Virus record (IMG/VR): IMGVR_UViG_3300042731_002664 | Span: 1 to 22,958 of that record | DNA: 22,958 bases | Direction: 5' to 3' (one strand) | Source of the DNA: a virus | Shown here: piece after piece, positions 4,427-22,626 of the stretch | How positions within the stretch are numbered: position 1 is the first letter of the stretch | Layout: each line of letters starts with the position of its first letter | Program-made: the position numbers and the translations under genes | The notes under the pieces: generated by a model | Told to the model about the DNA's origin: nothing | The model's input: the letters and a program-made list of their open reading frames with translations, nothing else | Databases searched by the model: none

Positions 4427-4869
4427 CAGATCACCCGGCCCAGACCCGGCTTGCGGAACGCGTCGTACTCCAGCTCCTCGTTGCTGTCGTCCAGGATCAG
4501 GATGTCGCCTCCCCGGATCTGCCCCAGCAGCTTGTGGTACTCGCCGGAGAAATAGTTGACGACCGCGCTGATCTCGCCCACACCCTCGGGCTCCGGAACT
4601 CCGGGGACCACGATGTCGGTGTCATGCTGCCAGCTGCGCACGATGGTCAGCTCCGCAGACTTATATCGGGACAGTCGGTTGATCACCCGCGGCACGCTGT
4701 CCAGCGCTTCGATCTCGCTCCAGTCGACCCACTTGCTCAGGTCGTCGTAGACGATCTCCTTCGCGTCGTCGATGTTGCGCTGCAGCTGCGCGTTCGTGAT
4801 GTCACTGTCCCGGAGCGCCGGGATGTCTCGCTTCAGCTCCTGCGTGCTACTTAGATCGGTCCACGCCAT
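4426..4869 (-). CDS. Head-tail connector / adaptor protein
   Basis: A 147-aa mostly helical protein starting at an ATG with GGGAG 6 bases upstream. The N-terminal half reads as helices of a gp6/DUF1320-like adaptor (ELKRDIPALRDSDITNAQL, then NIDDAKEIVYDDLSKWVD), with a long helix around residues 62-80 (VINRLSRYKSAELTIVRSW). Adaptors of this fold dock on the portal and are encoded just after the capsid in the head-to-tail order, as here apart from the two inserted glycosyltransferase genes. The start overlaps the end of the glycosyltransferase gene by 23 bases. The family assignment is from order and fold, not from a catalytic motif. Confidence 0.6.
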   Translation of the reverse strand: MAWTDLSSTQELKRDIPALRDSDITNAQLQRNIDDAKEIVYDDLSKWVDWSEIEALDSVPRVINRLSRYKSAELTIVRSWQHDTDIVVPGVPEPEGVGEISAVVNYFSGEYHKLLGQIRGGDILILDDSNEELEYDAFRKPGLGRVI

Positions 4870-5770
4870 CAGTCACTCCCTTCCAAGGCTCGCTGGCCTC
4901 GGTGTCAGTTTGCTGGCGTATCTGCTCCAGTCTCTTCCTCCACGGCCCGGAGGTGCGCTCCGGCTCCCACTCTGGATCCTCGAAGAACGCCCGGTAGGCT
5001 TCCACGACCGCGTCCACGGTCTCCGGGCGGCTCAGGCCCCACCGCGTGTTCCCGATGATATCCCAGCCGTTTTTGAGATCTCCCAGGATGCGGTACTTCA
5101 CGCTGGCCTTCGTCTTCCACTGGTCGGCCTCATGGTAGATGAAGTGCCACAGCTCTCTCGGTAAGTATACCAGATCCCCCAGGCGGAGTATACGCAAGAA
5201 GAACTCCCGGGTCTGCTTGCGCGGGAACCGGTCGTCCCACGGCCCGGCCTTGATCCAGTTCTCTCGCTTGAACAGCCACCCGCCCAGGCTCTCCTTGCCC
5301 TTGTAGTTCTCGAACGTCGATTTGCTGAAGTCGTAGATGTCGCGCACGCGATAGCGTTCGATCTTGTTCTCCAGGACGTAGTGCGTGGCGAAGTCGGTGT
5401 GCACGCCGTTGACGGTGTCCTCCCGACCGGCGATGAACTCCATGACCTCCTGGGCCCAGTTCGGCTCAAGGTAGCAGTCCGCGGCGTCGTTGTGGATCCA
5501 CGCGCCCCGGCTTTTCTCGAAGCCCAGGTTGACCGCCTGGCTCACCGAGCGCAGGCCGCTCTCGCGCTCCCGGCGCACCGTCACGATGTCCTTGCCGTAG
5601 CCCTTCAGGATGTTCGGCGTGTTGTCAGTGGATCCGTCGTCGATGACGATCACCTCGATGTTCGGATAGGTCTGGTTCAGTGCGCTCTCGATCGACTGCC
5701 GCAGCAGGTCCTCTCGCTCGTTGTAGGTCGGGATCAGGATGCTGATCATGCCCTTGATAATTTCAGCCAT
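4847..5770 (-). CDS. Family 2 (GT-A) glycosyltransferase
   Basis: A 307-aa protein with GGAGG 6 bases before the ATG, overlapping the previous glycosyltransferase by 8 bases. Residues 8-50 are the classic GT2 start: ISILIPTYNEREDLLRQSIE, then SALNQTYPNIEVIVIDDGSTDNT divided across the nucleotide-binding fold. The usual metal-binding DxD segment is replaced by WIHNDAADCYLEP near residues 91-103, so the metal ligands are probably N94/D95 and/or D98. A GWLFKRENWIKAGPWDDRF segment near 164-182 matches the acceptor-side motif where a Trp/Asp-rich loop follows. No membrane segment is seen, so it is likely cytosolic. It would transfer a nucleotide-activated sugar. The acceptor is unknown, but its place between capsid and connector genes suggests a virion target. 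Confidence 0.9.
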   Translation of the reverse strand: MAEIIKGMISILIPTYNEREDLLRQSIESALNQTYPNIEVIVIDDGSTDNTPNILKGYGKDIVTVRRERESGLRSVSQAVNLGFEKSRGAWIHNDAADCYLEPNWAQEVMEFIAGREDTVNGVHTDFATHYVLENKIERYRVRDIYDFSKSTFENYKGKESLGGWLFKRENWIKAGPWDDRFPRKQTREFFLRILRLGDLVYLPRELWHFIYHEADQWKTKASVKYRILGDLKNGWDIIGNTRWGLSRPETVDAVVEAYRAFFEDPEWEPERTSGPWRKRLEQIRQQTDTEASEPWKGVTDGVDRSK

Positions 5771-7937
5771 CGGTGGCCTCCACCAGCTCCAGCGGCGGCC
5801 TCTGGCCCGGCTGCGGCTGGTTCATCAACGGCCCTCCCAGTTGCTCGAACAGGTCCTTGATCCGGGCGACCATGTTGTTCACACCGTAGTGCTCCTGGAC
5901 CCATTTGCGGTATCGCTCGCTCTGGTACTTGCCGCTCAGTACCTTCTCCAGCTCCTCGAAGTCGTCCCAGATCAACTCGTGCGGCCACAGGTCCTTCGCG
6001 CCCCACCAGTTGTATATCAGCGGCTTGATGCCCTTCGCCATGCCCTCGGCCACGATGTAGCTGAACGCCTCCAGGTTGCTCGTGCTCAGCACGTATTTGC
6101 AGTCCTCGTAGAACCGGTCCATCGAGTCCTGCCGCGGCACGATCTCCCAGTTGCTCAGGCCCTGGATGTCGTGCATGAACGCGAAGTAGGAAATCGAATA
6201 GCTCCGCGGGACGTCCGTGCGGATCAGGAACTTGTACTCCGGGTGATGCTTGGCAAAGTAGCGGATCGTCATGGCCAGGCGCTCCACCCCCTTCTTCTCG
6301 GTGAACACGCCGACCCAGGCGATGCCGGTCTTCGTCGAGTTCTCGCGCTTGGCAAAGCTGAAGCCGTTCACGTCCACCGCGTTCGGGATCACCTCCAGGC
6401 GCAGGCTCGGCGGGATCGTGTTCGCGTACAGATCCAGGAACCGCTGCTTGACGTGCTTCGCCACGAACACCAGGGCGTCGATCGTCCGCCAGTTCATCTT
6501 CGCCATGACGTCCGGGTGATACAGCTCGTAGCTGTGCAGCCGGACCACGCGGATCTGACCGTTCGGCTTCGGCCAGTGGCTCATCTCCGCGGCGTTGTTG
6601 TGGCACCACTCCATGAACACGTAGTTCGCCCAGGCGGCGTACTCCACGTCGAAGTGCACGCCCTTCGCCACGTTCAGGTCCTGGGCGATCCGCTTCGCGA
6701 AGTCGTTCAGGAACGTGTAGCGCTGGGTGTCGTCGTAGAGGATCAGGTTCTTGCGGGTCGGGTCCATCTTGAGGTTCCGCTTCCACAGCTCCATCTTCTT
6801 GCCCAGCTCGCGATTGTCCTCGTCGCCCGCGGCCCCGAGGCTGATCGCTTTCTCGCCATTCTTCAGCGCCTCGAACCACTGGCCGACCTGGCTGTAGGTC
6901 GCGGCCAGTTTCATGTACGGCAGGTAGGAGTAGGCGGGCCCGTGCAGAAACATGCCATGAAGTGGCGGTTTCATATCTTTCGCGCAGAGGTACCAGTGCT
7001 CGGCGGCGTACCACTGCTTGTGCTCGAAGGCGATGTCGCCCATCAGCATGTAGAACTCCGGCCGCTCCCAGTCAAAGGCGAGCCCCTTGTACAGCCAGTC
7101 CTTCGTGGTCTTCCAGTCCTCGCGCTGGCTGTAGATCGAGGCGAGCTGGAGGCACGCCTGCGCCTTCTCGGCGTTCCAGGAGCTGATCTCCAGGTACTTG
7201 AGGTACCACTCGATGGCCTCATCGTGCATGTTCAGCTCGTTGTAGGTGTTGCCCAGATAGAAGTACGGGCGACTGACCTCCGGGTTCTCCTCGATGTCCT
7301 TCTTCAGCAGCTCGATGTTCATCTCCGCTCGCTGACTCTTGCGGACCTTCGCGTTCTCCGGAGTCCGCTGGTGGATGATCACCAGCTCGTTGACCGGCCG
7401 CTTCTTCGTGTCGTAGCCCTGCTCGGTGGCCAGCCAGTTGTGGACCCGGCCGGTGTAGCGGTGCTTCCCGTTGTTTTTGAACAGCCGCGGCTGGAGGAAG
7501 AAGATGTTCGGGATGATCTTCTCGATGTCGGTCACGTTCTCCGGGTTCATGTAGATCATCGCCGAGAAGATCTCGGTGTCCGCCAGGTCCCGTCCCGGCA
7601 TGACCCGCTCCAGCAGGGCCACCAGTACCGGGCGGCTTTTCGGATGGAGCAGCTCGTGGCCGTCCATCAGCAGGACCCACTCCTTCGTGCACTTGTCCAG
7701 GACCTGGTTCCGCGCGGCGGCGAAGTTGTCATCCCAGGTGAAGCTGTCCACGACGTGTGCGTACTGCTTCGCGATGTCCATCGTCCGGTCCGTGGACGTG
7801 TCGTCCACCAGAACCACGACCTCGTCTACCAGGTCCGCCACGGACTGGAGCGTGGTCTCCAGGGTGGCCTCTTCGTTCTTTACGAACAGTCCCAGGCTTA
7901 CCTCAGCCCGGGGCTTCTTCTGCTGCTCTCTCGGCAT
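5763..7937 (-). CDS. Bimodular glycosyltransferase: GT2 - TPR - GT4
   Basis: A 724-aa protein with GGAGAGG before the ATG. Residues 12-170 form a GT2-type domain (VSLGLFVKNEEATLETTL, then VDEVVVLVDDTSTDRT). Its metal site reads LLMDGHELL (90-97), unlike the usual DxD. Residues about 200-390 are TPR-like helical repeats with spaced Trp/Tyr/Ala (AIEWYLKYLEI, AAEHWYLCAKDM). Residues about 395-690 are a GT-B domain with GT4 features: VIPNAVDVNGF, a VGVFTEKKGVERL segment and the E-x7-E pattern in LEAFSYIVAEGMAKG. The GT2-plus-TPR part recalls SunS-like protein glycosyltransferases. Two catalytic modules could add two sugars in sequence. It lies directly after the capsid gene but beyond a terminator, so it may be expressed at lower level. 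No membrane segment or signal peptide is visible. Confidence 0.88.
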   Translation of the reverse strand: MPREQQKKPRAEVSLGLFVKNEEATLETTLQSVADLVDEVVVLVDDTSTDRTMDIAKQYAHVVDSFTWDDNFAAARNQVLDKCTKEWVLLMDGHELLHPKSRPVLVALLERVMPGRDLADTEIFSAMIYMNPENVTDIEKIIPNIFFLQPRLFKNNGKHRYTGRVHNWLATEQGYDTKKRPVNELVIIHQRTPENAKVRKSQRAEMNIELLKKDIEENPEVSRPYFYLGNTYNELNMHDEAIEWYLKYLEISSWNAEKAQACLQLASIYSQREDWKTTKDWLYKGLAFDWERPEFYMLMGDIAFEHKQWYAAEHWYLCAKDMKPPLHGMFLHGPAYSYLPYMKLAATYSQVGQWFEALKNGEKAISLGAAGDEDNRELGKKMELWKRNLKMDPTRKNLILYDDTQRYTFLNDFAKRIAQDLNVAKGVHFDVEYAAWANYVFMEWCHNNAAEMSHWPKPNGQIRVVRLHSYELYHPDVMAKMNWRTIDALVFVAKHVKQRFLDLYANTIPPSLRLEVIPNAVDVNGFSFAKRENSTKTGIAWVGVFTEKKGVERLAMTIRYFAKHHPEYKFLIRTDVPRSYSISYFAFMHDIQGLSNWEIVPRQDSMDRFYEDCKYVLSTSNLEAFSYIVAEGMAKGIKPLIYNWWGAKDLWPHELIWDDFEELEKVLSGKYQSERYRKWVQEHYGVNNMVARIKDLFEQLGGPLMNQPQPGQRPPLELVEATDG

Positions 7938-7950: not shown

Positions 7951-7989
7951 CAAATAAAAATAAACGCAGGGACGCGTGGCCCCTGCGTT
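7951..7989 (-). terminator. Rho-independent terminator after the major capsid gene
   Basis: On the minus strand AACGCAGGG and CCCTGCGTT make a perfect 9-bp stem around a 9-base loop, followed at once by TATTTTTATTT. It lies 32 bases after the capsid stop codon and 13 bases before the next start. This is a textbook intrinsic terminator and separates the scaffold-capsid unit from the glycosyltransferase genes. Read-through may still feed the downstream genes. Confidence 0.9.
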
Positions 7990-8021: not shown

Positions 8022-9005
8022 TTAGGTGTTCGCACCCACGCTCGATGCCGAGTACACCTTGAACAGTGCCTCCGGCCTCAGTTCCCCGAACCCGAACAGG
8101 CCGTACCAGTACACGTTCATCAGTCTCTGAAGGGCGTCGAACGGTCCGCTCATGCCCATCATGGGAGCCTGGCCCTCGGCGTATGCGATGCACTGGAAGC
8201 CGAGGAAGTACGAGGTGTACAGGTCTACGGTGCCGCTCGCTCCGTCGGAGGTCAACGCGGCGTTGCTGGTCTCTACGAACCGGAAGCCCTCGAACTCGCC
8301 GATCTCTCCGTTGTAGATCTCGGTCGGGTCGACGTACTCCTTCGGAGTGCGCCAGGCACCGGATCCGGTCTCTGCGCGGAGGTCATGGACGGTGTCCGGA
8401 TGGACGATGGCTACGTAGAACCGGCCGTCAGGTTTAGGTACGTTGTTCCGAGCCAGCCTGTTGCGCGCGAACCGGACGTCGGCCGCCGTCAGGAGTGATC
8501 CTGGCGAGGTTGTGATGTCCGTGGCGCTTGTCCCGGTGGCGTACTTGATGTACGCGCTGCCGGTCTGGGCGTCGTAGGCGGCCCGGGCGATCAGGTCGAC
8601 TGAGGTTCCCATGTTATCGCCGACCACCCGTCCTACGGACAGGTCGATGTCAGCGAAGCTCAGGAGCCTGATCTTCTGCGTGGTGGTCACCAGCTTGCCG
8701 TACTCCGCGAGGGAGACGGATTTCTGGGTCTTGCCCATCGTCTCGGCAGTGGGATCGCTTGTCTCGGCGAGGGCTCCGGTTGCCGCGGTCAGGTTGTTGA
8801 AGATCGTGAAGGTCACGGTATCTCCAGGCATCGGATCTCGCTCGCGAATTGTCCACCGCTTCGACTGCGCGAACTGGGCGAAGAACAGCTGGGGCTGGAA
8901 GGCGAACTCGACCGCTCTACTGTAGGCGGTCTGCACCAGGCCCGTGAGGCTTGTGGTGCTCGTGACTGCGAACCAGTTTAGCGGGATTTTGTAGAACCTT
9001 TTCAT
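8022..9005 (-). CDS. Major capsid protein, N4-gp56 family
   Basis: A 327-aa protein. I chose the ATG at 9005 because GGAGG lies 9 bases upstream; an in-frame TTG 36 bases earlier has no such signal. The sequence has N4-gp56-type capsid features: an early AVEFAFQPQLFFAQFAQ segment, a PMPGDTVTFTIFNNL strand region, a KTQKSVSLAEYGKLVTTTQKIRL stretch split over the E-loop, and GRFYVAIVHPDTVHDLRA in the middle. The N-terminus MKRFYKIPLNWFAVTS carries a PLNWFA motif shared in form with the scaffold, a possible protease cleavage site. It follows the scaffold and precedes a strong terminator, as expected for the most highly expressed virion gene. Confidence 0.88.
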   Translation of the reverse strand: MKRFYKIPLNWFAVTSTTSLTGLVQTAYSRAVEFAFQPQLFFAQFAQSKRWTIRERDPMPGDTVTFTIFNNLTAATGALAETSDPTAETMGKTQKSVSLAEYGKLVTTTQKIRLLSFADIDLSVGRVVGDNMGTSVDLIARAAYDAQTGSAYIKYATGTSATDITTSPGSLLTAADVRFARNRLARNNVPKPDGRFYVAIVHPDTVHDLRAETGSGAWRTPKEYVDPTEIYNGEIGEFEGFRFVETSNAALTSDGASGTVDLYTSYFLGFQCIAYAEGQAPMMGMSGPFDALQRLMNVYWYGLFGFGELRPEALFKVYSASSVGANT

Positions 9006-9065: not shown

Positions 9066-9863
9066 TTATCTGACGCCCTGTTGCCGGAAATCGGCGAGCA
9101 GCGCTTCGAGTTCTGCTTCATTCTTGCACTCGTCGATGAGCTGCTCGATGCGTCTCGCATCTGGCCGTCCGGCCGGTCCTTCTGGCGGTGTGTCGTCTCC
9201 GCCCACTTTCGTTTTTGACTTTCCAGAGTCGGTGTCATCGCCGCTGGAGCCAGGAGCAGCTTTCTTGACGACCGTCTGCTGGAACTTCTGTATCCACTTG
9301 ACCTGGTCTCGAATGTCCCCTTGCGGGATCAGGTTGTGGTACTCGACAGGGAGTTCCTCCTTCAGCTCATCGAGCCGTGTCTCGAAGAACTCCCGGGTCT
9401 TCGCTACGTCCTTTTTCAGTATATCATATTTAGGCTCTAATTCGTCAAGAGCCTTTTTGAACTCCTCCTTGTCCTTCATCTCCTTCAGCCGGGCCGCTTC
9501 GTCCCGCTCGGAGATCTCCCGCAGTTTTTGCTTTTTCTCCATGATCTCATGGAGTCGCTTGCGGGCCAGGTCGGAGAGCTTGTCGTTGCTGTCAGCCAGG
9601 ACCTTCATCGCCTTCGTCGTGCGCTTCAGCAGCGCCTTGATCGCCTCCGGGTCGTCGGAGTCGGCCCCTTCCTCCAGCTCGCTGAGCGTGCTCAGGGCCT
9701 GCTCGACCTCCTCGTCCACGATGCGCTTTTTCTCTTCGTCGTCCTGTTGTTCTTCTTTTTCTTCTTCGGCAGGTGTAGTCTCTTCGGAGCCTGGCTCTGG
9801 CTCGGTCTCTGCATCCGAAAACCACCACAGCGGCAGCCCACGGATCCTCTTAAATAGTCCCAT
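9066..9863 (-). CDS. Capsid scaffolding protein
   Basis: A 265-aa, highly charged, coiled-coil protein starting at an ATG with GGGAGG 7 bases upstream. After a short hydrophobic N-terminus (MGLFKRIRGLPLWWFS) comes an acidic Glu/Asp-rich segment (about 17-60). Long helices of Lys/Glu/Leu follow (70-180, for example RKRLHEIMEKKQKLREISER), then a linker and a C-terminal helix-turn-helix (ARRIEQLIDECKNEAELEALL, given as its span 240-260). This composition and the position immediately before the capsid gene fit a scaffold with a C-terminal capsid-binding helix. The PLWWFS motif at residues 11-16 resembles PLNWFA in the capsid N-terminus. No protease catalytic motif is evident in it. Confidence 0.85.
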   Translation of the reverse strand: MGLFKRIRGLPLWWFSDAETEPEPGSEETTPAEEEKEEQQDDEEKKRIVDEEVEQALSTLSELEEGADSDDPEAIKALLKRTTKAMKVLADSNDKLSDLARKRLHEIMEKKQKLREISERDEAARLKEMKDKEEFKKALDELEPKYDILKKDVAKTREFFETRLDELKEELPVEYHNLIPQGDIRDQVKWIQKFQQTVVKKAAPGSSGDDTDSGKSKTKVGGDDTPPEGPAGRPDARRIEQLIDECKNEAELEALLADFRQQGVR

Positions 9864-9865
9864 CT

Positions 9866-9895: not shown

Positions 9896-9924
9896 ATTCT
9901 AAAGTATTTTTCGATCCCCGTCTA
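9896..9924 (-). promoter_or_regulatory. Candidate sigma-70-type promoter for scaffold and capsid
   Basis: TAGACG (4 of 6 matches to TTGACA), a 17-base spacer and TAGAAT (5 of 6 matches to TATAAT) lie in a conspicuously AT-rich gap between the beta-helix acyltransferase and scaffold genes. The -35 element overlaps the acyltransferase TAG. Transcription would begin near 9888 and end at the terminator at 7951-7989, giving a separate scaffold-capsid mRNA. This is inferred from sequence match only. Confidence 0.45.
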
Positions 9925-10704
9925 CAGCAGTTTCAGCTCCTTCTGCAGTTCCGCGTAGCGCTCCAGGACCCGCTCCTGGACGTCCTCCGGCCAGCGGAAC
10001 CGCAGCGGCCAGTCGTACCAGGTCCCGTACTCCGGATGCACGAACCGGCGGACCGGCATGACCGGCCGGGCCGGATCCCCGGAGTAAACCATGCCCGGCT
10101 CCGGGCAGTCCTTGACCACACTCCCGGCGGTGACGAAACACAGCTCCGCGACCACGGCCCCCGGCATGACCAGGGCGTTCGAGGCGATGCAGCTGAACAG
10201 GCCGATCTGCGGCTTCAGCTCCGTGGGCGAGGGAGGCAGCGGATCGTTTGTCATCTGGACGTTCGCGAACAGCTGCACATAGTCGCACAGCGTCGCCCCC
10301 GGGGTGATCTGGCAGCAGGTCTGCGTCTTCACGTAGTCCCCGATCCAGCCGCGGCCCTCGACGCTGGAGAGTCCTCCCAGTTGAAATCCCTCTCCGATGC
10401 GCATGCCGCTGCGTATAGTGCAGTGGCTGCCCGTCGAGAGCCGCCGCCCGATCACGCTGCCGCCCTGGATCACCGAGTGGCTGCGGATGAGCGAGTCCTC
10501 GCCGATGCACAGCGGCCGCTCGCTCCCGCCAGGGGAGCCGAGCACGCAGTGGCTGTCGATCACCACGCCCTTCTCGATGATCACGTCCGGGTGGATGATC
10601 GTGAACGCGCCGATCACCACGTCGCCTGCGATCGTGCAGCTTTCGTGCACGCGTAGATCCGCGCCCCAGTAGTAGCCCGCCTCTTTGGCCTCTGCGGAGT
10701 TCAT
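9922..10704 (-). CDS. Left-handed beta-helix (hexapeptide) sugar acyltransferase
   Basis: A 260-aa protein whose ATG overlaps the ACP stop (ATGA). Residues 12-200 are hexapeptide repeats of the left-handed beta-helix fold (VVIGAFTIIHPDVIIEKGVV, then SVIQGGSVIGRRL, TPGATLCDYVQLFANVQM). The coil ends with VVAELCFVTAGSVV and a GDPARPV segment typical of nucleotide-sugar N- or O-acyltransferases such as WbpD. A helical tail of about 45 residues follows. At 260 aa it is as long as LpxA, which takes acyl groups from ACP, while the GDPAR ending is more like acetyl-CoA-dependent sugar enzymes. The neighbouring ACP makes an ACP-borne acyl donor plausible. Donor and acceptor cannot be decided from sequence. 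It could supply the WbpD step to the dehydrogenase-oxidoreductase-aminotransferase set near 19-22 kb. Confidence 0.85.
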   Translation of the reverse strand: MNSAEAKEAGYYWGADLRVHESCTIAGDVVIGAFTIIHPDVIIEKGVVIDSHCVLGSPGGSERPLCIGEDSLIRSHSVIQGGSVIGRRLSTGSHCTIRSGMRIGEGFQLGGLSSVEGRGWIGDYVKTQTCCQITPGATLCDYVQLFANVQMTNDPLPPSPTELKPQIGLFSCIASNALVMPGAVVAELCFVTAGSVVKDCPEPGMVYSGDPARPVMPVRRFVHPEYGTWYDWPLRFRWPEDVQERVLERYAELQKELKLL

Positions 10705-10943
10705 GTCTTGACCCCGAACCTCTCCAGCAGCTCCCTCGGCGTCTTGATCGCTTTGATGATCCCGGGGACCTCCTCGACCGGGATCTCCTGCCCGTCCAGG
10801 AACTCATCCACCAGGATCGACAGCATCATCATCTTCGCCATCGAGTCGTATCCGATCAGGCCGGGCAGGTCCGTGTCCAGACCGATCGTCTCCTGCATGT
10901 CCGTGCTCAACGCTCCGAGGAACTTCTCTATCCTCTCGTCCAT
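10701..10943 (-). CDS. Acyl carrier protein
   Basis: An 80-aa acidic helical protein. I chose the ATG at 10943, which has GGAGG 7 bases upstream and follows the KAS III stop by 2 bases; an upstream in-frame start would overlap KAS III and lacks this signal. The phosphopantetheine site is GYDSM, with Ser34 as the attachment residue, followed by the usual helix (MMMLSILVDEF). The length and four-helix pattern fit ACPs or peptidyl-carrier-like proteins. It would need a phosphopantetheinyl transferase, presumably from the host. Its place between KAS III and a beta-helix acyltransferase suggests it carries the acyl group between them. Confidence 0.9.
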   Translation of the reverse strand: MDERIEKFLGALSTDMQETIGLDTDLPGLIGYDSMAKMMMLSILVDEFLDGQEIPVEEVPGIIKAIKTPRELLERFGVKT

Positions 10944-10945: not shown

Positions 10946-11860
10946 TTATACCTCCAAAATTGTCGCGGCCCAGGAGTATCCCACCCCGAAGCCGCACAGC
11001 AGCACCTTGTCCCCCACCGAAACGACCCTCCGTTCCATGCAGTCCCGCAGGGCCAGGGGGATCGAGGAGGAGACCGTGTTCCCTGTGTAGCGGATGTCGT
11101 TGTAGAACTTCTCCTGCGGGATCTTCAGCGTGCGCCGCAGGTGGTCCAGCATGTAGTGGTTCGCCTGGTGGAAAATGAAATAATCGACCGCATCGAGTTC
11201 GAGATTGTACCGAGAAACGACCTCACGGACGGCCTTCGGGACCTCCTGGATTGTAAAAGCGAAAATCTCCGCACCGTTCATGGTCAGGGTCCCGTAGCGC
11301 GGGACGATCAGGTTCTCCGCACCGCGGCCGTCGGTGCCGAACACGAACGACGGGTGCGGCAGGCTGTAGCTGACCAGTGTGGCCGTGGCCCCGTCTCCGA
11401 AGATCATGCGGTTCCCGGCGTCCTCCTTCGCAATATGCTGGGTGTACGCTTCGCTGGTCACCAGCAGGACCTGGTTCGCCTGGTTGCTGAACAGCAGCCC
11501 ATTCGCCAGGCTCAGGCCGTACACGTAGCCGGAGCAGCCGAGGTTGATGTCGAGGGCCCCGATGTCGGTCCGCAGGCCCAGGCGCTCCTGCAGGATGCAG
11601 GCCAGGTTCGGCAGGTGGTACTCCGAGGACTGGGTGCACAGGATGACATAGTCAATTAGTGACAGGTCGTGACGATCTACTACCTGCTGCGCAGCCTTCA
11701 GCGCCATGAACAGAATCGACTCGCCATCCGCCACGTGCCGCCGGGTCACCCCGATCTTCGAGGCGGCCCGCTTGACGTTATACTCGGGGACCTCCTCCTG
11801 CAGCATCTCGTTCGTGAGCACCTGCTCGGGCAGATGGTATCCGATATCGACAAGTCTCAT
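10946..11860 (-). CDS. 3-oxoacyl-ACP synthase III (FabH-like KAS III)
   Basis: A 304-aa thiolase-fold protein with the full KAS III triad: Cys109 in INLGCSGYVYGL, His231 in FIFHQANHYML, and Asn261 in YTGNTVSSSIPLAL. It also has the C-terminal GFGVGYSWAATIL that is diagnostic for the family. KAS III enzymes condense an acyl-CoA with malonyl-ACP, and some relatives instead transfer acyl groups to sugars or amines. The gene starts 4 bases after the kinase stop and ends 2 bases before the ACP ATG. The length is slightly short of the usual about 320 aa. The presence of its own ACP argues for a dedicated acyl product and not for general fatty acid synthesis. Confidence 0.93.
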   Translation of the reverse strand: MRLVDIGYHLPEQVLTNEMLQEEVPEYNVKRAASKIGVTRRHVADGESILFMALKAAQQVVDRHDLSLIDYVILCTQSSEYHLPNLACILQERLGLRTDIGALDINLGCSGYVYGLSLANGLLFSNQANQVLLVTSEAYTQHIAKEDAGNRMIFGDGATATLVSYSLPHPSFVFGTDGRGAENLIVPRYGTLTMNGAEIFAFTIQEVPKAVREVVSRYNLELDAVDYFIFHQANHYMLDHLRRTLKIPQEKFYNDIRYTGNTVSSSIPLALRDCMERRVVSVGDKVLLCGFGVGYSWAATILEV

Positions 11861-14186: not shown

Positions 14187-14356
14187 CAGATCAACGCTCC
14201 CTTCGGCAGCCGCGGCGGCTTCATCTTCTTCCCCGAGTCCAGCGCCCGCTGGATCCCCTCAGCGGCGACCTCCATCTCCAGGTTGAAGATCGGCGGGCTC
14301 TCCCTGAACTTTTCCATGTAGGCGTCAACCAGATCCATCAACTGCTTCCTCGTCAT
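14186..14356 (-). CDS. Small hypothetical protein (56 aa)
   Basis: ATG at 14356 overlaps the stop of the minor head gene (TAATG), and its stop overlaps the sulfotransferase start (TGATG). It begins MTRKQLMDLVDAYMEKF, has a central ESPPIFNLEMEVAAEGI segment and ends in a basic Pro-rich tail. Likely one or two helices. Function unknown. The double coupling argues that it is translated. Confidence 0.7.
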   Translation of the reverse strand: MTRKQLMDLVDAYMEKFRESPPIFNLEMEVAAEGIQRALDSGKKMKPPRLPKGALI

Positions 14357-15768
14357 TATTGCACCTTCCCCAGATACTGGAAAAATGTGTCATAGGTGTC
14401 TGGCCACTGGTCCTTGATCATCTTCAGCATCTTCGTCTTCTTGCGCGCATGCAGGGTGAACAGGTTCGCCACCGTCTCCGAGACACGGTGGGAGGTGTCC
14501 TGGAAGTAGCGGCGGCCGTGCCCCATCCCAACATCCCCAGCGGAGACGGCCTCGAAGGTGTCCGCGACGTACATGCCGAACGGATCCTTCCGGTACAGCT
14601 CCATCAGCTCCTTGTTCTTCGCCCTGATCGCCTCCCACCGGATGTTCCCCGCCTGCGCGGATCCAGACGGCACACCCGGATGTAGGGCTTTCAACTGCTT
14701 CTCGTATCGGACATGGTCCCGCTGTATCGCCGCAGTGATGTCCCGCTGGAACTGGGTGCCCCATTTCGGGTTCGCGCGCAGCGTCTCGAAATCAAACTTG
14801 TGCCCCAGCTCATGGAGCATCGTGCTATCCTTTTTCAGTGTATCCCAATTTCGCCGTCTGTCAAAGTACAGGCCCCCGGCCTTCGGATGCGTCCCGGGCT
14901 GCATGTAGTAGCAGGTCCCGGAGACCCGGCCGACCTTGTCTACCGTCGGCATCGCCAGGACGGCCCCCTGGATGTCCTTCGGCACATCCGGGTTGTCCAG
15001 CAGGTCCAGGTAGGCGTCGTTTGCCCCGCGGCTGGTACTCTTGAACTTGTCGGTCATGACGTACGGGGACTGCCCCTTCTCCGGGAGCTGGGTGGTGGTC
15101 TCTGGCTTCACCTTCTTCATCCCGCGCGCCGCGATCCGGGCGATCTGGCCCCGGGGGATCACGATCATGTTGCCCTGCGCCTTCAACTGGGCCCGGGTCT
15201 CCGGCGTGATCCGGTCACGGCCCCAGACCTCCTGCTCCTCGCCTCCGGCGATGATGAACGGACTGGTGGTATGTACGCAGCGGGGATGGAACAGGTGGAT
15301 CGACCGGGCCTCGGCGATGGTCTGGTAGCCGGGCGTCTGGCCGTCGATGGAGAGGATCCTCCCCTCCCAGGTGCGGCACATGTCCCCGGATCCGCCGATC
15401 GATACGATCACCAGGTCGAACCCGGCTCCGGCCATCTCGTGGTGTAGGCCCTCCTCCTGGAGCGCCCGGCTCTGGGTGCGCGCCTGGGTCTCGCTCCAGG
15501 ACTCCGGATCGTAGAACCGCGTCTTCCCGTCCCGGCACAGGATCGGCATCCGGCCGTACTGGTTCACCCGCGGCCCGATGATCTGCTGGATCTGGTTCTT
15601 GATCTCCGGGATGCTCATCGCGTTCAGGTTCGAGCGCATGGCGAACTCCATGACCTCCGGCGTGGAGGTGAGCTGCTCCAGGTAGCGGGCGTTGAAGTTG
15701 CGCATGTTGCGGGCGGAGGAGAAGATGTCGCGGTTGATCCCGTTGACGTAGAACTCCGGGTCCTTCAC
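14356..15768 (-). CDS. Minor head protein fused to a zinc metallopeptidase domain
   Basis: A 470-aa protein starting at a GTG that overlaps the protease stop (GTGA), with AGGAGG 5 bases upstream. Residues about 90-175 look like the phage minor capsid protein 2/MuF region, with GSGDMCRTWEGR (127-138) and LFHPRCVHT (159-167). Residues about 280-445 are a zincin-like domain: TMLHELGHKFDFE (316-328) holds the HExxH metal site, with Glu320 catalytic, and SETVANLF (430-437) offers Glu431 as a third ligand. A DTFEAVSAGDVGMGHGRRYF segment lies between, as seen in similar phage minor head proteins. MuF-type proteins sit at the portal and can be delivered into the host, so the C-terminal enzyme might act there or in head maturation. 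Confidence 0.82.
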   Translation of the reverse strand: MKDPEFYVNGINRDIFSSARNMRNFNARYLEQLTSTPEVMEFAMRSNLNAMSIPEIKNQIQQIIGPRVNQYGRMPILCRDGKTRFYDPESWSETQARTQSRALQEEGLHHEMAGAGFDLVIVSIGGSGDMCRTWEGRILSIDGQTPGYQTIAEARSIHLFHPRCVHTTSPFIIAGGEEQEVWGRDRITPETRAQLKAQGNMIVIPRGQIARIAARGMKKVKPETTTQLPEKGQSPYVMTDKFKSTSRGANDAYLDLLDNPDVPKDIQGAVLAMPTVDKVGRVSGTCYYMQPGTHPKAGGLYFDRRRNWDTLKKDSTMLHELGHKFDFETLRANPKWGTQFQRDITAAIQRDHVRYEKQLKALHPGVPSGSAQAGNIRWEAIRAKNKELMELYRKDPFGMYVADTFEAVSAGDVGMGHGRRYFQDTSHRVSETVANLFTLHARKKTKMLKMIKDQWPDTYDTFFQYLGKVQ

Positions 15769-16516: not shown

Positions 16517-18178
16517 CTATTCCATGCCGCGGAGGAAATCCTGCGCGCGTCGCTGCTCGTCCTCTGCGGCCAGGGACCGCTCGGCTGCCAGCCTGACGGC
16601 CTCCTGCTCCACGTCGATCTCGTCGAAGTACTTCTCCACGATGTCCAGCGCCGTGGCCTTCGTCAGCACGCCGCCGATCACCAGCTTCGTGACCTGCTCG
16701 ATGATATCCCGGACGTCAGTGGGCAGCGCGCTCTGGACCTCGATGTTCGGCTCGTAGATCTCATCCTCCCAGTCGGTGCGCGGCGCGGCCTCGATCTGCG
16801 GCGGGTTGTCCTCGGTGGCCTCTCCCCAGACGGCGCGCAGTTTCTGGCCGATCCGGATCATGTCGACGATCGCCTGGTTCATGTACGCCTCTTTCCTGGT
16901 CTTCATCGCCAGCGATCGGATCAGCTTGTACATCAGGGCCCGGCCGCTCTCGATGCCGCCCTCGTCCTTGCCCAGCAGCGCCGGGGAGATCTCGGTGTTC
17001 ATGCAGATCGCCTCGTACAGGCGCTTGATCTCATCCTGGGACTCCTGCAGGTGGCTGTCCCAGACCAGATATCCGGGCGGGGTGCCCTGGGCGTCGACCG
17101 GGAAGTACCGGCTCCCGCCGCCGCTCATCGTCAGGTTGCCGTACTCATCGAGGAAGCTCGCGTCCCCGTACATCGACGGGTCGGCGTGCTTGTCCAGCAC
17201 GTCGTTCAGCTGGGTCTCCCGGTTGTTCATGGCGTTCTGCAGGCTCTCGATCATCCCGGTGTCCGAGACGCCGTACACGTCGAACATGCGGTAGTTCGGC
17301 CAGTGGATCAGCAGCGGCTCATCCACGCCGGTGTACTCCACGATGACCATGATCCTCCGGGGATCCTCGCTCTCGCGGTTGCGCTCCGGATCCCACGGAT
17401 CGAACTCCAGGAACGTCTGCATGTGCGGGGACCGCAGCGCACGCTCCACCTCGATCATGTTCTCCGGGTAGCTGCCATAGGCCACCGGCTTCCAGCTCCG
17501 GCCCTCCCGCACGTACAGCTCCTTCATGATGAACCCCGGGTAGTGGGTCTTCTTCTGCGCGTACTCGGTCTTGCGCCTGCGGGCGAACAGCCGGACCTCA
17601 CGCTCGGCCTGCGGGAGGGGATCCTCCTCGAACTCCCAGGCGATCTCGTAGTAGTTGACCTCGAAGCCCTGGTGATCGATGTCGACCCAGTACGGGTTGA
17701 TGTAGCGGAACTTGACCAGCCCGTCCTCCATGTACGCCTCGTAGAACTGGTCCCCGAGGGAGCTGTTGCGGATGGCCGCCTCGTACATCGCGGTCAGGTA
17801 CTTGTTGCGGGTGATCAGCTGCTCCAGCCACTGGTCCAGCTCCTCGGCAACGCCGTCCTCCTCTTTCCACTTGACGGACAGCCGCTTGCCCAGCAGCAGG
17901 TCGGCGCTGGCCTTGTTGATCAGCTGCGCCTTGTTGTCGACGATGAACTCCTTCGTGGCCCATTCCTCGACCGTGTACAGCGCGCCGGTAACCGGGTCCC
18001 GCTTGACCGACTGGCCCAGCGGTCGCTCATAGTACGCCCTGCCGAACGGATCCTCGTTGATCACGTACAGCTGGTGGACCGTGGTCTCCTCCGCGATGGA
18101 GAAGCCCCTGGCGGTCATCTGCTTGTAGCGGGCGTAGTTCTTTTTTCGGATCTCTTGCTCTGGATTGCGGAAATACAT
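16517..18178 (-). CDS. Portal protein (SPP1 gp6-like)
   Basis: A 553-aa protein with AGGAG 6 bases before the ATG. It has the portal features of the SPP1 gp6/DUF1073-like group: an N-terminal KAQLINKASADLLLGKRLSVK strand-helix (80-105), a WHY-rich wing domain, the clip region around MNNRETQLNDVLDKHADP, and the crown helices near TEISPALLGKDEGGIESGRALMYKLI (given as positions about 400-425). The C-terminus is a long acidic helix (AVRLAAERSLAAEDEQRR). The portal forms the dodecameric DNA channel and nucleates head assembly. The terminase would be expected upstream, to the right of this region. Confidence 0.9.
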   Translation of the reverse strand: MYFRNPEQEIRKKNYARYKQMTARGFSIAEETTVHQLYVINEDPFGRAYYERPLGQSVKRDPVTGALYTVEEWATKEFIVDNKAQLINKASADLLLGKRLSVKWKEEDGVAEELDQWLEQLITRNKYLTAMYEAAIRNSSLGDQFYEAYMEDGLVKFRYINPYWVDIDHQGFEVNYYEIAWEFEEDPLPQAEREVRLFARRRKTEYAQKKTHYPGFIMKELYVREGRSWKPVAYGSYPENMIEVERALRSPHMQTFLEFDPWDPERNRESEDPRRIMVIVEYTGVDEPLLIHWPNYRMFDVYGVSDTGMIESLQNAMNNRETQLNDVLDKHADPSMYGDASFLDEYGNLTMSGGGSRYFPVDAQGTPPGYLVWDSHLQESQDEIKRLYEAICMNTEISPALLGKDEGGIESGRALMYKLIRSLAMKTRKEAYMNQAIVDMIRIGQKLRAVWGEATEDNPPQIEAAPRTDWEDEIYEPNIEVQSALPTDVRDIIEQVTKLVIGGVLTKATALDIVEKYFDEIDVEQEAVRLAAERSLAAEDEQRRAQDFLRGME

Positions 18179-18890: not shown

Positions 18891-19170
18891 GTTCGGACCT
18901 CCTGTCCTTTACATTTTTTACCATATCCAGGTAGTTGTCAAGTTGATCCAGCATACCACGAAACACCACGTCTTGGCTCTCCCCCTGGACCTCGATGCGC
19001 TTGTCCCGGCCCGGCATGGCGTGGTGGATCTCGAACCCGGCCGTCCAGTGTCCTGGATCCGGCAGCCAGCGGAAATACATCCCGACACGTACCCGCGAGA
19101 ACTCAGCCACCAGGGTCTCGAACCGCTGCGCGGACCGGGCGATCCGGCGGCGCGTCCTACGCTTTCCCAT
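18742..19170 (-). CDS. Hypothetical protein (142 aa), 3' part overlapping the next gene
   Basis: ATG at 19170, overlapping the dehydrogenase stop by 14 bases. The first 94 residues read as a genuine small domain (FETLVAEFSRVRVGMYFRWL, then HHAMPGRDKRIEVQGESQDV and FRGMLDQLDNYLDMVKNV). The last 48 codons overlap the 86-aa gene in another frame and have poorer codon usage, becoming Arg-rich. Either the two genes overlap by 149 bases or a stop codon was lost, extending this protein. Function unknown. Confidence 0.6.
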   Translation of the reverse strand: MGKRRTRRRIARSAQRFETLVAEFSRVRVGMYFRWLPDPGHWTAGFEIHHAMPGRDKRIEVQGESQDVVFRGMLDQLDNYLDMVKNVKDRRSEHERRGKVQRKALAHLLEKIRQSGEVRRERRSQRRDAALDHDTRDPGDRQ

Positions 19171-20410
19171 CTCCCAGCCTTACCACCTTGAACCCGGCGC
19201 GCTCCCAGTCCCGGAGGAACAGGCAGTTGCGCACGTCGATGATCAGCTTCTGGCGCATGCTCCGGCGCACGTCCTCCGGATCCAGCTGGACGTACTCCGG
19301 ATGGGCCGTCATGATCACCGCGCAGTCGGCCTGGCGGAACATCTTCAACAGGTCCTTCTCCGGATACACGTACGGATCGTGGACTCCGACCCGGTAGACC
19401 ACCGTCTCCAGGAGGTTGCGCAGGGCGAATCCGGGGGAGTTGCGCACGTCGGTGCTCCGTGGCAGGTAGGCCACCCCCAGGACGGAGACAGCGGCCTCGT
19501 TCAGCTTGCGGTTCACGTGCTTCTTCAGCAGATCCACGATCCGGTGCGGCTGGCGATCGTTGACCAGGAGCGCCTGGTTCACGATGCCGGTGGATCCCAC
19601 GCTCTGCGTGCTCTCGCGGTACAGCCACGGATCCTTCGGCAGGCAGTAGCCGCCCACCACTCCGGGCATCAGCAGCGGGTGCTCGACCAGGTCCCGGACC
19701 TTCCAGAAGTCCACGCCCGCGGCCTCGCAGTCCTCGGCGATCTCGTTGGCCAGGGCGATGTTGACCGCGCGGTGGGTGTTCTCCACCAGCTTGGCCATCT
19801 CCGCCTCCTCCAGGGTCGCCGCGTAGGCTGCATGCGGGCCGATGAACGAGTACATCTCCGCGGCCCGGCGCACTCCCTCCGGGCGGCCTCCGATAATGCG
19901 CACCAGGTTCTTCAGGTTCAGCCACAGCCGGGTGGGCATGACCCGCTCCGGTGCGTGTACCAGGTAGAAGTCCTGCCCCTCCTCCAGCTCGGTGGCCATC
20001 TCGATGAGCTGGATCATCTTCCGGCAGGTGCCGACCGGGACCGTGGACTCGATCGAGATCACCTGGCCCATCTGCGGCTTCAGGTGCTGCGCCAGGCGCG
20101 CGAACACGCCGGAGAGGACCTTGATGTCCGAGCGCCAGGCGGTCCAGTCCACCGGCACGCAGACGCAGATCATGTCCGCATCGGCCACCAGGCGGAAGTC
20201 CCGGGTGAACTCGATCCGGTCCTTCGCGATAGCCTCCGACAGCTTCTCGGCGATCTTCGGCTCCTGCGGGGAGAACGGGCTGATCCCGTTCTGCAGCTGC
20301 ACCAGCTTCCCCCCGTCGCTATCGATCCCGATCACTCCGTCTGGGTCCGTCTCGCTGAACGCCAGCGCCAGAGGGAGCCCGATGTACCCGAGCCCTATGA
20401 CTGCCACCAC
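19157..20410 (-). CDS. UDP-N-acetyl-hexosamine 6-dehydrogenase (WbpA/WecC class)
   Basis: A 417-aa protein starting at GTG with AGGAGG 7 bases upstream, overlapping the aminotransferase end. Residues 2-30 are a Rossmann NAD site (VAVIGLGYIGLPLALAFSE). The family motifs follow: ESTVPVGT (121-128), HAPERVMPTR (152-161), AEMAKLVENTHRAVNIALANE (203-223) and the catalytic GGYCLPKDP (253-261) with Cys256. These enzymes oxidise C6 of a UDP-sugar twice to a uronic acid with NAD. The gene neighbours (MocA-type oxidoreductase and DegT aminotransferase) point to UDP-GlcNAc as substrate, as with WbpA. UDP-ManNAc or UDP-Glc cannot be ruled out from sequence. Confidence 0.9.
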   Translation of the reverse strand: MVAVIGLGYIGLPLALAFSETDPDGVIGIDSDGGKLVQLQNGISPFSPQEPKIAEKLSEAIAKDRIEFTRDFRLVADADMICVCVPVDWTAWRSDIKVLSGVFARLAQHLKPQMGQVISIESTVPVGTCRKMIQLIEMATELEEGQDFYLVHAPERVMPTRLWLNLKNLVRIIGGRPEGVRRAAEMYSFIGPHAAYAATLEEAEMAKLVENTHRAVNIALANEIAEDCEAAGVDFWKVRDLVEHPLLMPGVVGGYCLPKDPWLYRESTQSVGSTGIVNQALLVNDRQPHRIVDLLKKHVNRKLNEAAVSVLGVAYLPRSTDVRNSPGFALRNLLETVVYRVGVHDPYVYPEKDLLKMFRQADCAVIMTAHPEYVQLDPEDVRRSMRQKLIIDVRNCLFLRDWERAGFKVVRLGDGKA

Positions 20411-21495
20411 TTCAATACCTCCTCGGCCACTATCTCGGCCTCTTCATCTGTAGTCGTATGTGAACACGGCAGGGAGATGCTCTCCGCCGCGATGTTCGTC
20501 GTCACCGGCAGGGTGTAGCGCTGCGGGTTGCCCTCCGTGACCGGCAGCATGTGGATCGGCGGGCTGTAGTAGCGCTTCGTCGGGATCCCCTGCTCCCGCA
20601 GGTGTCGTTCCAGGCTCAGGACATTCGGCACCACGATCGTGTACACCGCCCAGGCGTGCTCGTCGACCCCGTAGGGGATCCCGATCCCGGTGCCGGTCAG
20701 CTTCTCCCCGTAGATCCTGGCGATCCGCCTGCGCCGGTGGATCATGTAGTCGAGGTACTTCAGTTTCACGTTGACGATGGCCGCCTGGAGGTTGCTCATG
20801 CGCAGGTTCAGGCCCAGGTGCCAGTGCGTGCCGTCGGCCAGGCCGTTCTGCACGATGGCCTGGACCCGCGCGGCGATGGCCGGGTGATCGGTGAACACCG
20901 CCCCGCCCTCTCCGTAGCCGCCCAGGGTCTTGGTCGGGAAGAAACTCGTCACGGCCACCTGGCTCAGGTTGCCTGACTTCCTGCCCTTGTATTTCGCGCC
21001 CAGGCTCTGCGCCGCGTCCTCCAGGACCGCGCAGCCGAACCCCGCGGCCAGGGAGCGGTACTCGTCCATGTCCGCAGGCTGTCCGAACAGGCTCGTCGGC
21101 ATCAGCACAGCGGTCCGCTGGGTGATGATCTCGACCACGCTTTTCGGGTCCATCGTCCAGGTGCCCTTGTGGATGTCGGCGAACAGGACCCGCGCGCCCA
21201 GGATCCGGGCGGCGTTGTAGCCCGCGATGAACGTGTAGCTCGGCATGATGACGTCTACTCCAGGCCCCACGCCAAGAGCCAGAAGAGCAGCAAGTAGAGC
21301 CCCAGTCCCGCTGCTACAAGGCACGCAAAAAGGGCTATCAGTATATCCGGCCAGCGCCGCAGCCAGAGCCGCCACAGGGCTCTCAGGATTCTCATAATCG
21401 GCGATGTACGACCCGCTGTCGAGGACCTGGCGGACCGCCTCCTGGATCTCATCCTGCCACGGATCACTGGGCAGGTCTATCCACTTTATTCCCAT
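20395..21495 (-). CDS. PLP-dependent sugar aminotransferase (DegT/DnrJ/EryC1/ArnB, WbpE-like)
   Basis: A 366-aa protein with GAGGAGG before the ATG. Motifs: PCSSGTGALLAALLALGVG (59-77) for cofactor phosphate, PSYTF (85-89), EDAAQSLGAKYKG (159-171) with Asp160 and Gln163, and SFFPTKTLGGYGEGG (184-198) with Lys189 as the PLP Schiff-base residue. A NLRMSNLQAAI segment follows near 252. Such enzymes transfer an amino group, usually from glutamate, to a keto-sugar nucleotide. WbpE does this at C3 after the WbpB oxidation. About 47 codons near the start have abnormal third positions where a second frame is open (see findings). Confidence 0.92.
   Translation of the reverse strand: MGIKWIDLPSDPWQDEIQEAVRQVLDSGSYIADYENPESPVAALAAALAGYTDSPFCVPCSSGTGALLAALLALGVGPGVDVIMPSYTFIAGYNAARILGARVLFADIHKGTWTMDPKSVVEIITQRTAVLMPTSLFGQPADMDEYRSLAAGFGCAVLEDAAQSLGAKYKGRKSGNLSQVAVTSFFPTKTLGGYGEGGAVFTDHPAIAARVQAIVQNGLADGTHWHLGLNLRMSNLQAAIVNVKLKYLDYMIHRRRRIARIYGEKLTGTGIGIPYGVDEHAWAVYTIVVPNVLSLERHLREQGIPTKRYYSPPIHMLPVTEGNPQRYTLPVTTNIAAESISLPCSHTTTDEEAEIVAEEVLKWWQS
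21255..21395 (-). CDS. Candidate overlapping gene for a 46-aa membrane protein
   Basis: Within the aminotransferase gene, in the +1 frame, an ATG at 21395 opens 46 codons to a TAG at 21255. The product has an Arg/Trp-rich N-terminus (MRILRALWRLWLRRW) followed by a hydrophobic stretch of about 27 residues able to cross the membrane. The host frame loses its normal third-position G/C bias precisely across this ORF and regains it after, which suggests the overlapping frame constrained the sequence. No clear Shine-Dalgarno precedes the ATG, and starts further upstream (GTG 21467, ATG 21452) are possible. It could be a small holin-like or membrane-anchoring protein, or not expressed. Confidence 0.4.
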   Translation of the reverse strand: MRILRALWRLWLRRWPDILIALFACLVAAGLGLYLLLFWLLAWGLE

Positions 21496-21505
21496 TCACT
21501 CCTCC

Positions 21506-21703
21506 TCAACTGTTTCTCTCCAGCCAGTCCTTGTCTGAAAATACGTAGCGCAGCCGCTGCTCCAGGACGTCGATCCGCGCCTCCAGCGCCTGGATCTCGG
21601 CCTGCAGCGCCCGGGCCGTCCCGTAGGTGATCCCCTCCCGGATCGGCTCCTCGTCCGGGCTTCGAGCCTCGCAGAACGAGCGCAACACACCGCGCGCGCT
21701 CAT
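21506..21703 (-). CDS. Small coiled-coil protein (65 aa)
   Basis: ATG overlaps the oxidoreductase stop (ATGA). The first third is basic/acidic mixed; residues 30-52 (ARALQAEIQALEARIDVLEQ) form a heptad coiled coil, and the end reads YVFSDKDWLERNS. It stands between two sugar enzymes. Function unknown. A structural or adaptor role is possible. Confidence 0.7.
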   Translation of the reverse strand: MSARGVLRSFCEARSPDEEPIREGITYGTARALQAEIQALEARIDVLEQRLRYVFSDKDWLERNS

Positions 21704-22626
21704 ATCGGCTCGTATTCCGCGCTGAGCACATCCTCCACGATCTGCACGGCCCGCAGGCCCACCGAGTCCTTCTCCAGGGGAGCGCGCCCAGCCTTGGCCG
21801 CGCTGATGAACGTCTCCAGCTCTCCCAGTAGCGGCTCGCCCGGGTAGCGGTCCTGGCGGACCTCCAGGGGCTCGCGCCGGTTGAACCGCCGGATGATCTG
21901 TTTCACCAGGTCGGCCTCCACCACCTGCGTGCTCGTGTACAGCGTGATCGTCCGACGCTTCTCCACATCGATCCAGCTGGTCCGCGTCATCCCCGGCGTG
22001 TTCTCCGGGATCATGAACTGCGCCAGGCAGAACACCGGCGTCATGTGCGGCCCGTGGACGATGGCCTCGTCGTTGATCAGCTTGATCCCCGTGCCGAAGA
22101 AGTAGACCAGCAGGTCGAAGTCGTGGACGGCCAGGTCGACCACCACACCCTCCGCCCGGTAGCGCTCCACCGCCAGGTTGCCCACGCGGCAGATCTCCAC
22201 CCGCAGCACGTCGCCCAGATCCCCGTCATCGTTGAACATCAGCGCGAACAATCCCCGGACCACCGGGTTGTACCGCTCGGTGAACCCGACCATCAGGACC
22301 GTGTCCCGCTCCCGGGCCGCCGTGTAGACCTCGATGATGTCGGCCGAGTTGTCGCACAGCGGCTTCTCGCACAGGACCGCCGCGCCCTGCTCGATGGCCC
22401 GCAGGCAGAGATCCTTGTGCGTGTCGATCGGCGTGGCGATCACGCAGGCGTCCATCCAGTCGAAGATCTCGTCCTCCGGCAGGTAGCAGCAGTCACGCAG
22501 TGCGGCGGCTATCTCCGGGTCCGGGTCGTATACTTTCAGGTGAAATCCGTGCACTTTCGACAGGCTCTGAAGGATCCGGAAGTGGTTCGAGCCCATGTTC
22601 CCCGCGCCCAACAGCGCGACGTTCAC
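21700..22626 (-). CDS. Gfo/Idh/MocA-family sugar-nucleotide oxidoreductase (WbpB-like)
   Basis: A 308-aa protein starting at a GTG overlapping the previous stop (GTGA), with CGGAG 6 bases upstream. Residues 2-15 are the NAD site (NVALLGAGNMGSNH). Residues 86-90 (CEKPL) carry the signature Glu-Lys-Pro, with Lys88 the likely catalytic or substrate-binding residue, and the C-terminal half is the alpha/beta substrate domain (VDLAVHDFDLLVYFFG at 163-178, with the conserved HDFD). WbpB-type members oxidise C3 of UDP-GlcNAcA, giving the keto sugar that WbpE aminates. Other members act on inositols or free sugars. The aminotransferase and 6-dehydrogenase beside it favour the WbpB role. Confidence 0.85.
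   Translation of the reverse strand: MNVALLGAGNMGSNHFRILQSLSKVHGFHLKVYDPDPEIAAALRDCCYLPEDEIFDWMDACVIATPIDTHKDLCLRAIEQGAAVLCEKPLCDNSADIIEVYTAARERDTVLMVGFTERYNPVVRGLFALMFNDDGDLGDVLRVEICRVGNLAVERYRAEGVVVDLAVHDFDLLVYFFGTGIKLINDEAIVHGPHMTPVFCLAQFMIPENTPGMTRTSWIDVEKRRTITLYTSTQVVEADLVKQIIRRFNRREPLEVRQDRYPGEPLLGELETFISAAKAGRAPLEKDSVGLRAVQIVEDVLSAEYEPI

Follow-up and report, generated by a model that had tools for sequence, protein, structure and literature searches.

The window analyzed here, that is, the whole 22,958-bp linear IMG/VR fragment IMGVR_UViG_3300042731_002664, encodes carbohydrate-, acyl- and sulfate-related enzymes among the virion genes of a phage. Based on gene content, motifs, synteny and relatives, it is proposed with moderate confidence that this phage glycosylates a virion protein of its own, most likely the major capsid protein (MCP). 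In the best reading, the attached sugar would be a 3-acylamino-uronic acid, probably decorated by means of an acyl carrier protein (ACP) and sulfated. The core of the system is represented by two glycosyltransferases (GTs), one encoded directly after the capsid gene and the other ahead of the connectors, and not by enzymes of the Wbp type. An earlier note on this DNA had considered that a glycan may decorate the particle. This view gains support from the GTs kept next to the MCP gene in related phages and from the nearest structurally solved GT relatives, which are protein GTs.

All window genes are located on the minus strand. The ten genes listed in the earlier note as carbohydrate- or acyl/sulfate-related proved to be real within positions 4847 to 22626, featuring intact catalytic motifs; eight of the identities were borne out by profile or structure matches, and that of the ACP and, less so, that of the sulfotransferase rest on motifs. 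Read from right to left, the order is Gfo/Idh/MocA oxidoreductase (GFO), DegT-type aminotransferase, nucleotide-sugar 6-dehydrogenase (UGD), small open reading frames (ORFs), portal, h151, a Prp-like gene, minor head, sulfotransferase, small ORFs, an adenosine phosphosulfate (APS) kinase fusion, beta-ketoacyl-ACP synthase III (KAS III), an ACP-like gene, acyltransferase (AcT), scaffold-position protein, MCP, GT2-TPR-GT4, GT2, three connector-position genes, tail tube, a chaperone-position gene and tape measure. Interleaving with virion genes was confirmed, but the alternation described previously gives way to three clusters: GFO-DegT-UGD upstream of the portal gene, sulfotransferase-APS kinase-KAS III-(ACP)-AcT in the minor head to scaffold interval, and the two GTs in the capsid to head-connector interval. 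The gene set does not represent a chance association because it recurs in other assemblies of the same phage and in relatives.

The capsid protein and the large GT served as queries in scans for relatives, which yielded L006/G005 (72 kb), L007, L008, L010, L011, L042/G014 (80 kb), L043/G015 (87 kb), L046, L047 and L048; L041/G019 was left out as a separate lineage, its matches being nearly equal to those of G005. Nine lineages possess an MCP at least 60% identical and a contig continuing beyond it (the window, L006, L007, L008, L010, L011, L042, L043 and L046). In all nine, a GT2-TPR-GT4 protein of about 700 amino acids is encoded by the next gene after the MCP, and GT genes are thus kept among virion genes across the lineage. 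The relatives' proteins share 40–55% identity with the window protein. Furthermore, wherever a contig extends to the connectors, a GT2 of about 300 amino acids is encoded ahead of them. The interval between the two GTs is variable: it is empty in the window, L006 and L007, holds small ORFs in L010 and L046, a GT4 in L047 and L048, a DegT in L011, a GT4, an epimerase and a second GT2 in L042, a DegT, an epimerase, a GT4 and a B12-radical SAM protein in L043, and a DegT, a PIG-L deacetylase, a formyltransferase and an epimerase in L008, whose contig ends there. The relatives thus keep the sugar-attaching enzymes by the capsid gene and swap the sugar-making ones, a pattern suggestive of a virus coating its own particle.

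A profile built from six GT2-TPR-GT4 members matched, in the GT2 part, the solved structures of GmaR (9e-24) and SunS (3e-22), and also TPR proteins including OGT. The best folds for the predicted model (pLDDT 72) were SPY, OGT, SunS and ThuS, with low whole-chain TM scores of 0.2–0.3. By sequence and fold of its catalytic and TPR domains, the protein is related to protein GTs of the GmaR/SunS/OGT type. Maximal 19-residue hydropathy values of 1.18 and 0.65 indicate that the two GTs lack membrane segments and are soluble. GmaR places GlcNAc on flagellin, the modification being carried out by its GT domain (PMC9638930), and the TPR domain of FlmG is the flagellin-binding part (PMC7591256). GT2-TPR-GT4 is accordingly regarded as a putative soluble protein glycosyltransferase. 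Its likely acceptor is the abundant MCP encoded next to it; tube or connector proteins are possible as well. No full-length relative was found in cultured phages, nor any near-identical relative of the phage itself among them, and a genome-contig scan with the GT alignment returned only matches of 22–29% identity in four metagenome-assembled genomes (MAGs), so that no host was assigned. A distant GT2-TPR relative with collagen-like and fibre-like neighbours occurs on a Cloacimonadota MAG contig that looks phage-derived (L134:7992-10373). Two radical SAM proteins are encoded upstream in the window's phage (L022:12301-13485, with a B12-binding domain, and L023:2909-4096); the B12-binding one has a 45% homologue in the inter-GT interval of L043 and may therefore modify the sugar or the acceptor.

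The donor-sugar enzymes fit the C6 dehydrogenase, C3 dehydrogenase and C3 aminotransferase of the WbpA-B-E-D pathway at class level, with equivalog cut-offs unreached. For GFO, the best NCBIfam model was NF040723 (UDP-GlcNAc 3-dehydrogenase; 142 bits, cut-off 450), and its EKP and HDFD motifs are intact; homologues occur in G005, G015, G014 and L158. DegT is closest to PDB 8e75 (4e-69; also 8e77) and to WbpE 3nu7 (7e-68), with an intact PLP lysine motif (PTK). UGD passes the cut-off of TIGR03026 (299 bits vs. 190), matches PDB 4r16 (1e-66) and best fits UDP-ManNAc/GlcNAc-type 6-dehydrogenases, with an intact catalytic Cys motif (GGYCLPKD); its gene overlaps that of DegT by 16 bp. Of the four WbpA-B-E-D classes named in the earlier note, these three hold up; the acyltransferase does not qualify as WbpD. 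The Wbp set was also not retained as an invariant core, since the sugar-making genes vary among relatives and the two GTs are constant. G005 carries GFO-UGD without DegT at the same pre-portal place, G015 has GFO, a WlbB-type AcT and UGD 5' of its terminase, and G014 has GFO and a WlbB-type AcT in the terminase-portal interval; the capsid-site DegT of L008 and L043 belongs to a different subfamily from the window DegT. Sugar enzymes are 31–36% identical between relatives whose MCPs are 71–78% identical, which shows frequent exchange or fast divergence. The case of related phages with these genes single and unlinked, which the earlier note would have counted against its reading, does not apply: GFO and UGD occur together in G005 and G015, and DegT, GFO and an AcT in L158. 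In G009, UGD-like and AcT-like parts are combined in one protein encoded 5' of the portal gene; such a 412-aa ORF, its acyltransferase-like part being of the hexapeptide kind, lies immediately 5' of the portal gene at L032:2498-3736 (minus strand). Many 'phages' matches for KAS III or UGD were unannotated records (OR84xxxx) resembling bacterial DNA and were disregarded.

Regarding the acyl branch, QdtC (1e-32) is a far closer match to the AcT than WlbB (1.6e-6) is, and the AcT has the motif TNDPxPPS in common with QdtC. Its orthologues in L006 and L007 (41–42% identity, with the same motif) adjoin an ACP-like gene and are not grouped with GFO or DegT; in both phages, the minor head-scaffold interval contains sulfotransferase-ACP-SDR-acyl ligase-AcT. 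The ACP-AcT linkage hence occurs in three phages with differing acyl enzymes (KAS III, or SDR and acyl ligase), and the AcT therefore appears tied to a carrier protein with differing loading enzymes. The top NCBIfam model for the L006 AcT was LpxA. KAS III reached 236 bits against NF006829 (cut-off 249) with an intact Cys-His-Asn triad, and its relatives among viral contigs were limited to the same phage. The ACP equivalents of L006 and L007 carry D-S-L, that of L007 matching PP-binding at an E-value of 0.0023, under its cut-off, and neither gave a PDB sequence match. The model of the window ACP is all-helical and of low confidence, with Ser34 at a helix start, and too weak for meaningful Foldseek matches. 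For acyl-ACP-dependent sugar acylation, the D-S-M/D-S-L motif and the linkage in three phages stand beside a sub-threshold profile and a poor model. WlbB-type AcTs of G014, G015 and L158 are 45–51% identical to each other and 26–32% to the window AcT, and occur beside GFO; about 50 kb of the window's phage contained no copy of this type. The linkage argues for acyl-ACP donors and disfavours a plain WbpD role. A short AcT-like gene was also observed in the terminase-portal interval of another unrelated phage (L153:3950-4378).

Sulfate chemistry is represented by the sulfotransferase, of the type using phosphoadenosine phosphosulfate (PAPS), with counterparts at the same position in L006 (44%) and L007 (34%), and by the APS kinase fusion (Pfam APS kinase 5e-48, PDB 2yvu 5e-41). 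The N-terminal domain of the latter matches NMNAT (2qjt, 6e-6); an assignment as ATP sulfurylase was rejected, and the fusion is not put forward as a one-piece PAPS synthase. The G005 homologue (32%) has lost the HxGH motif. A second PAPS-type sulfotransferase adjoins the terminase gene of the same phage (L022:15907-16611), with a homologue in G005 (L027:13909-14589).

Genes, motifs, synteny and relatives are direct observations, from which we infer substrates, order of steps, acceptor, acyl group and sulfation site as follows. UGD, GFO and DegT would convert host UDP-GlcNAc to a UDP-2-acetamido-3-amino-uronic acid, and, with the small ACP as carrier, KAS III would assemble a short acyl group, which the QdtC-like transferase would move to the 3-amino group in place of a plain acetyl. 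The APS kinase may increase PAPS, with which the sulfotransferase would sulfate the glycan. Finally, the TPR part of GT2-TPR-GT4 would bind the capsid protein so that the enzyme attaches the first sugar(s); lengthening of the glycan would fall to the second GT2. Tentatively, a lineage of tailed phages may coat its capsid with a self-made, acylated and sulfated glycan, the turnover of its cassettes working like serotype switching of the virion: a fixed protein-glycosylating pair would flank the post-capsid site, with chemistry exchanged as cassettes, and separate sites would supply amino-uronic sugar, acyl group built on the acyl carrier and sulfate.

A comparable arrangement was found in L158, from an unrelated phage whose capsid protein is of the SU10 type. 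Its MCP and head-tail adaptor genes enclose genes for a GDP-mannose-dehydratase-like (GMD-like) protein, GTs, DegT, GFO, an AcT (hexapeptide, from the WlbB-type group) and an epimerase, and several of these sugar genes overlap one another. Two unrelated phage lineages hence carry the same enzyme classes among their head genes.

Remodelling of the host surface (capsule, lipopolysaccharide or a teichoic-type polymer), e.g., against superinfection, is regarded as distinctly improbable. WbpA/B/E and LpxA enzyme classes serve mostly surface polymers, and the GtrB-like family phrog_841 weakly matches both GTs (6e-8 and 5e-4). However, the two GTs are soluble, neither having the C-terminal membrane helices that GtrB-type enzymes possess, no flippase, polymerase, phosphoglycosyltransferase or GtrA/Wzx-like gene was recognised, the genes are part of a late virion operon, and the nearest relatives of GT2-TPR-GT4 modify proteins. 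The membrane-bound GT and flippase of GtrAB-type seroconversion were not found. Glycosylation of modified pyrimidines in the phage genome, the remaining enzymes decorating the sugar, appears very improbable. Virus GTs are able to hypermodify DNA with diverse glycans (Pyle 2024, as cited in PMC12619734), and folE/queD/queE-like genes are present in L042 and L043; but neither TET/JBP nor a hydroxymethylase of the thymidylate synthase family (ThyA) was detected in 14 records, three of 72–87 kb, which may be incomplete, and the GTs are grouped with head genes and best match protein GTs.

The plain WbpA-B-E-D route to UDP-2,3-diacetamido-uronic acid, with the AcT as an acetyl-CoA-dependent WbpD and KAS III, ACP and sulfation serving another product, fits the classes of GFO, DegT and UGD and the fold family that the AcT has in common with WlbB. 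It is considered unlikely in view of the QdtC affinity of the AcT, whose orthologues travel with an ACP, while WlbB-type enzymes form their separate group by GFO elsewhere. A modest chance is given to unrelated small pathways having gathered in an insertion-tolerant operon with no single combined product, as the low conservation of sugar enzymes relative to MCPs and the differing cassettes at each site would allow. On the other hand, classes recur in place (GFO near UGD or by an AcT, ACP near AcT, GT by MCP), and GFO, DegT, AcT and GTs reappear in L158.

Several results weigh against glycosylation of the virion by one combined pathway. GFO and DegT fall below their best NCBIfam equivalog cut-offs, and UGD passes only a subfamily cut-off. 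G005 encodes GFO, UGD and an AcT and no DegT, so that the four do not have to belong to a single route. The window ACP has no Pfam match, is weak by profile and is assigned from its D-S-M motif and position. Streptomyces phage Kumquat, with an MCP 41% identical, lacks a GT at the capsid site; this capsid type is not generally accompanied by glycosylation. Moreover, a terminator separates MCP and GT2-TPR-GT4, and capsid and GT are not strictly co-expressed.

The strong post-MCP hairpin is present in all nine lineages with unrelated sequences, its structure being kept, and none of 60 shuffles of each was as stable. Kumquat and L158 also carry a terminator after the capsid gene, so that it is an ordinary feature and was rejected as GT-specific. 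The GTs are therefore expected to be held below the capsid level. GT2 shares 8 bp with GT2-TPR-GT4 and 23 bp with the connector gene, and is therefore probably expressed with the head genes.

The Nod-factor assembly line likewise unites GT2, ACP, ketosynthase, acyltransferase, PAPS supply and sulfotransferase classes. The likeness is confined to this set; homology is not claimed, and nothing points to a secreted lipo-oligosaccharide here. With QdtC, a 3-amino sugar N-acyltransferase, the phage AcT has its closest solved relative, but it is encoded beside ACP genes and possibly depends on acyl-ACP instead of acetyl-CoA. GmaR and SunS have the GT2 catalytic domain in common with the phage enzyme, GmaR and OGT the TPR part; the phage enzyme differs from these and SPY in its added C-terminal GT4 domain and its context. 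The Pseudomonas WbpA-B-E-D(-I) pathway (order in PMC10622841) has the 6-dehydrogenase, 3-dehydrogenase and WbpE-like aminotransferase classes in common but differs in that the AcT here is QdtC-like and ACP-linked; a WbpI-type 2-epimerase (PF02350) was absent from 8 records searched. In mycobacteriophages (Che8 and others), phage GTs were linked to capsid and tail-tube glycans (Freeman et al. 2023, as cited in PMC11256854 and PMC12619734). The likeness lies in the phage GTs; as far as the citing papers allow a comparison, distinguishing features here are the GT directly after the capsid gene, the GT2-TPR-GT4 architecture and the presence in the operon of genes for donor sugar, acyl and sulfate chemistry.

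Literature searches on phage ACP/sulfotransferase/GT clusters returned nothing, and to our knowledge acyl-ACP and PAPS chemistry is known from no other virion. The system probably belongs with the virion glycosylation known from mycobacteriophages, in a better equipped form whose exchangeable donor chemistry is supplied by the phage. Should this hold, a glycosylation line running almost completely from donor to acceptor, and serving the phages' own particles, would exist outside mycobacteria. The exchange of cassettes points to selection on the surface identity of the particle, and the relatives would form a natural series in which to test why phages glycosylate virions. In GT2-TPR-GT4 there would be a candidate soluble protein glycosyltransferase whose likely substrate gene adjoins its own.

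Table 1. Features of the window, ordered from right to left as transcribed.
Feature	Position	Strand	Evidence
GFO, Gfo/Idh/MocA oxidoreductase, UDP-GlcNAc(A) 3-dehydrogenase-like (WbpB class)	21700..22626	-	PF01408 1e-16
DegT, pyridoxal phosphate (PLP) sugar aminotransferase, WbpE-like	20395..21495	-	PF01041 3e-92
UGD, nucleotide-sugar 6-dehydrogenase (WbpA/UDP-ManNAcA-DH class)	19157..20410	-	UDPG_MGDP_dh domains
Portal protein	16517..18178	-	PF05133 9e-7, phrog_533 4e-21
Minor head protein	14356..15768	-	phrog_4611 4e-14
PAPS-type sulfotransferase	13503..14186	-	motifs PRSGTT and RHPVD; PF13469 4.7e-4, sub-threshold
APS kinase with N-terminal NMNAT-like nucleotidyltransferase (HxGH) domain	11865..12734	-	TIGR00455 170 bits, above cut-off
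KAS III, FabH-like	10946..11860	-	PF08541 3e-28 (C-terminal domain)
Probable ACP	10701..10943	-	GYDSMAK motif and position
AcT, left-handed beta-helix N-acyltransferase, QdtC-like	9922..10704	-	PDB QdtC 3fs8 1e-32
Scaffold-position protein	9066..9863	-	acidic/coiled, immediately 5' of MCP, kept in relatives
MCP	8022..9005	-	phrog_1357 8e-58
Intrinsic terminator, MCP / GT2-TPR-GT4 gap	7963..7989	-	11-bp stem and T tract
GT2-TPR-GT4, putative protein glycosyltransferase	5763..7937	-	PF00535 9e-17, TPR, PF00534 5e-5
GT2 glycosyltransferase	4847..5770	-	PF00535 1e-28
Head-connector-position gene hc1	4426..4869	-	GT2 neighbour, kept in relatives
Tail tube protein	2094..3422	-	PF18906 2e-12, phrog_290 2e-23

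The window ends are arbitrary because the window is the whole linear fragment. Overlapping contigs of the same phage add about 17 kb upstream (terminase, the second sulfotransferase, a GT4, the two radical SAM proteins and RecA) and about 10 kb downstream (the remainder of the tape measure and large fibre/baseplate genes), and several other assemblies hold the phage at 99.9–100% identity. The folE/queD/queE-like genes, of the 7-deazaguanine precursor type, are located 5' of the scaffold gene (L042:6032-7477 and L043:135-707). Furthermore, the minor head protein features a HELGH zinc-protease-like motif, and its length differs widely among relatives, ranging from 197 to 993 aa.

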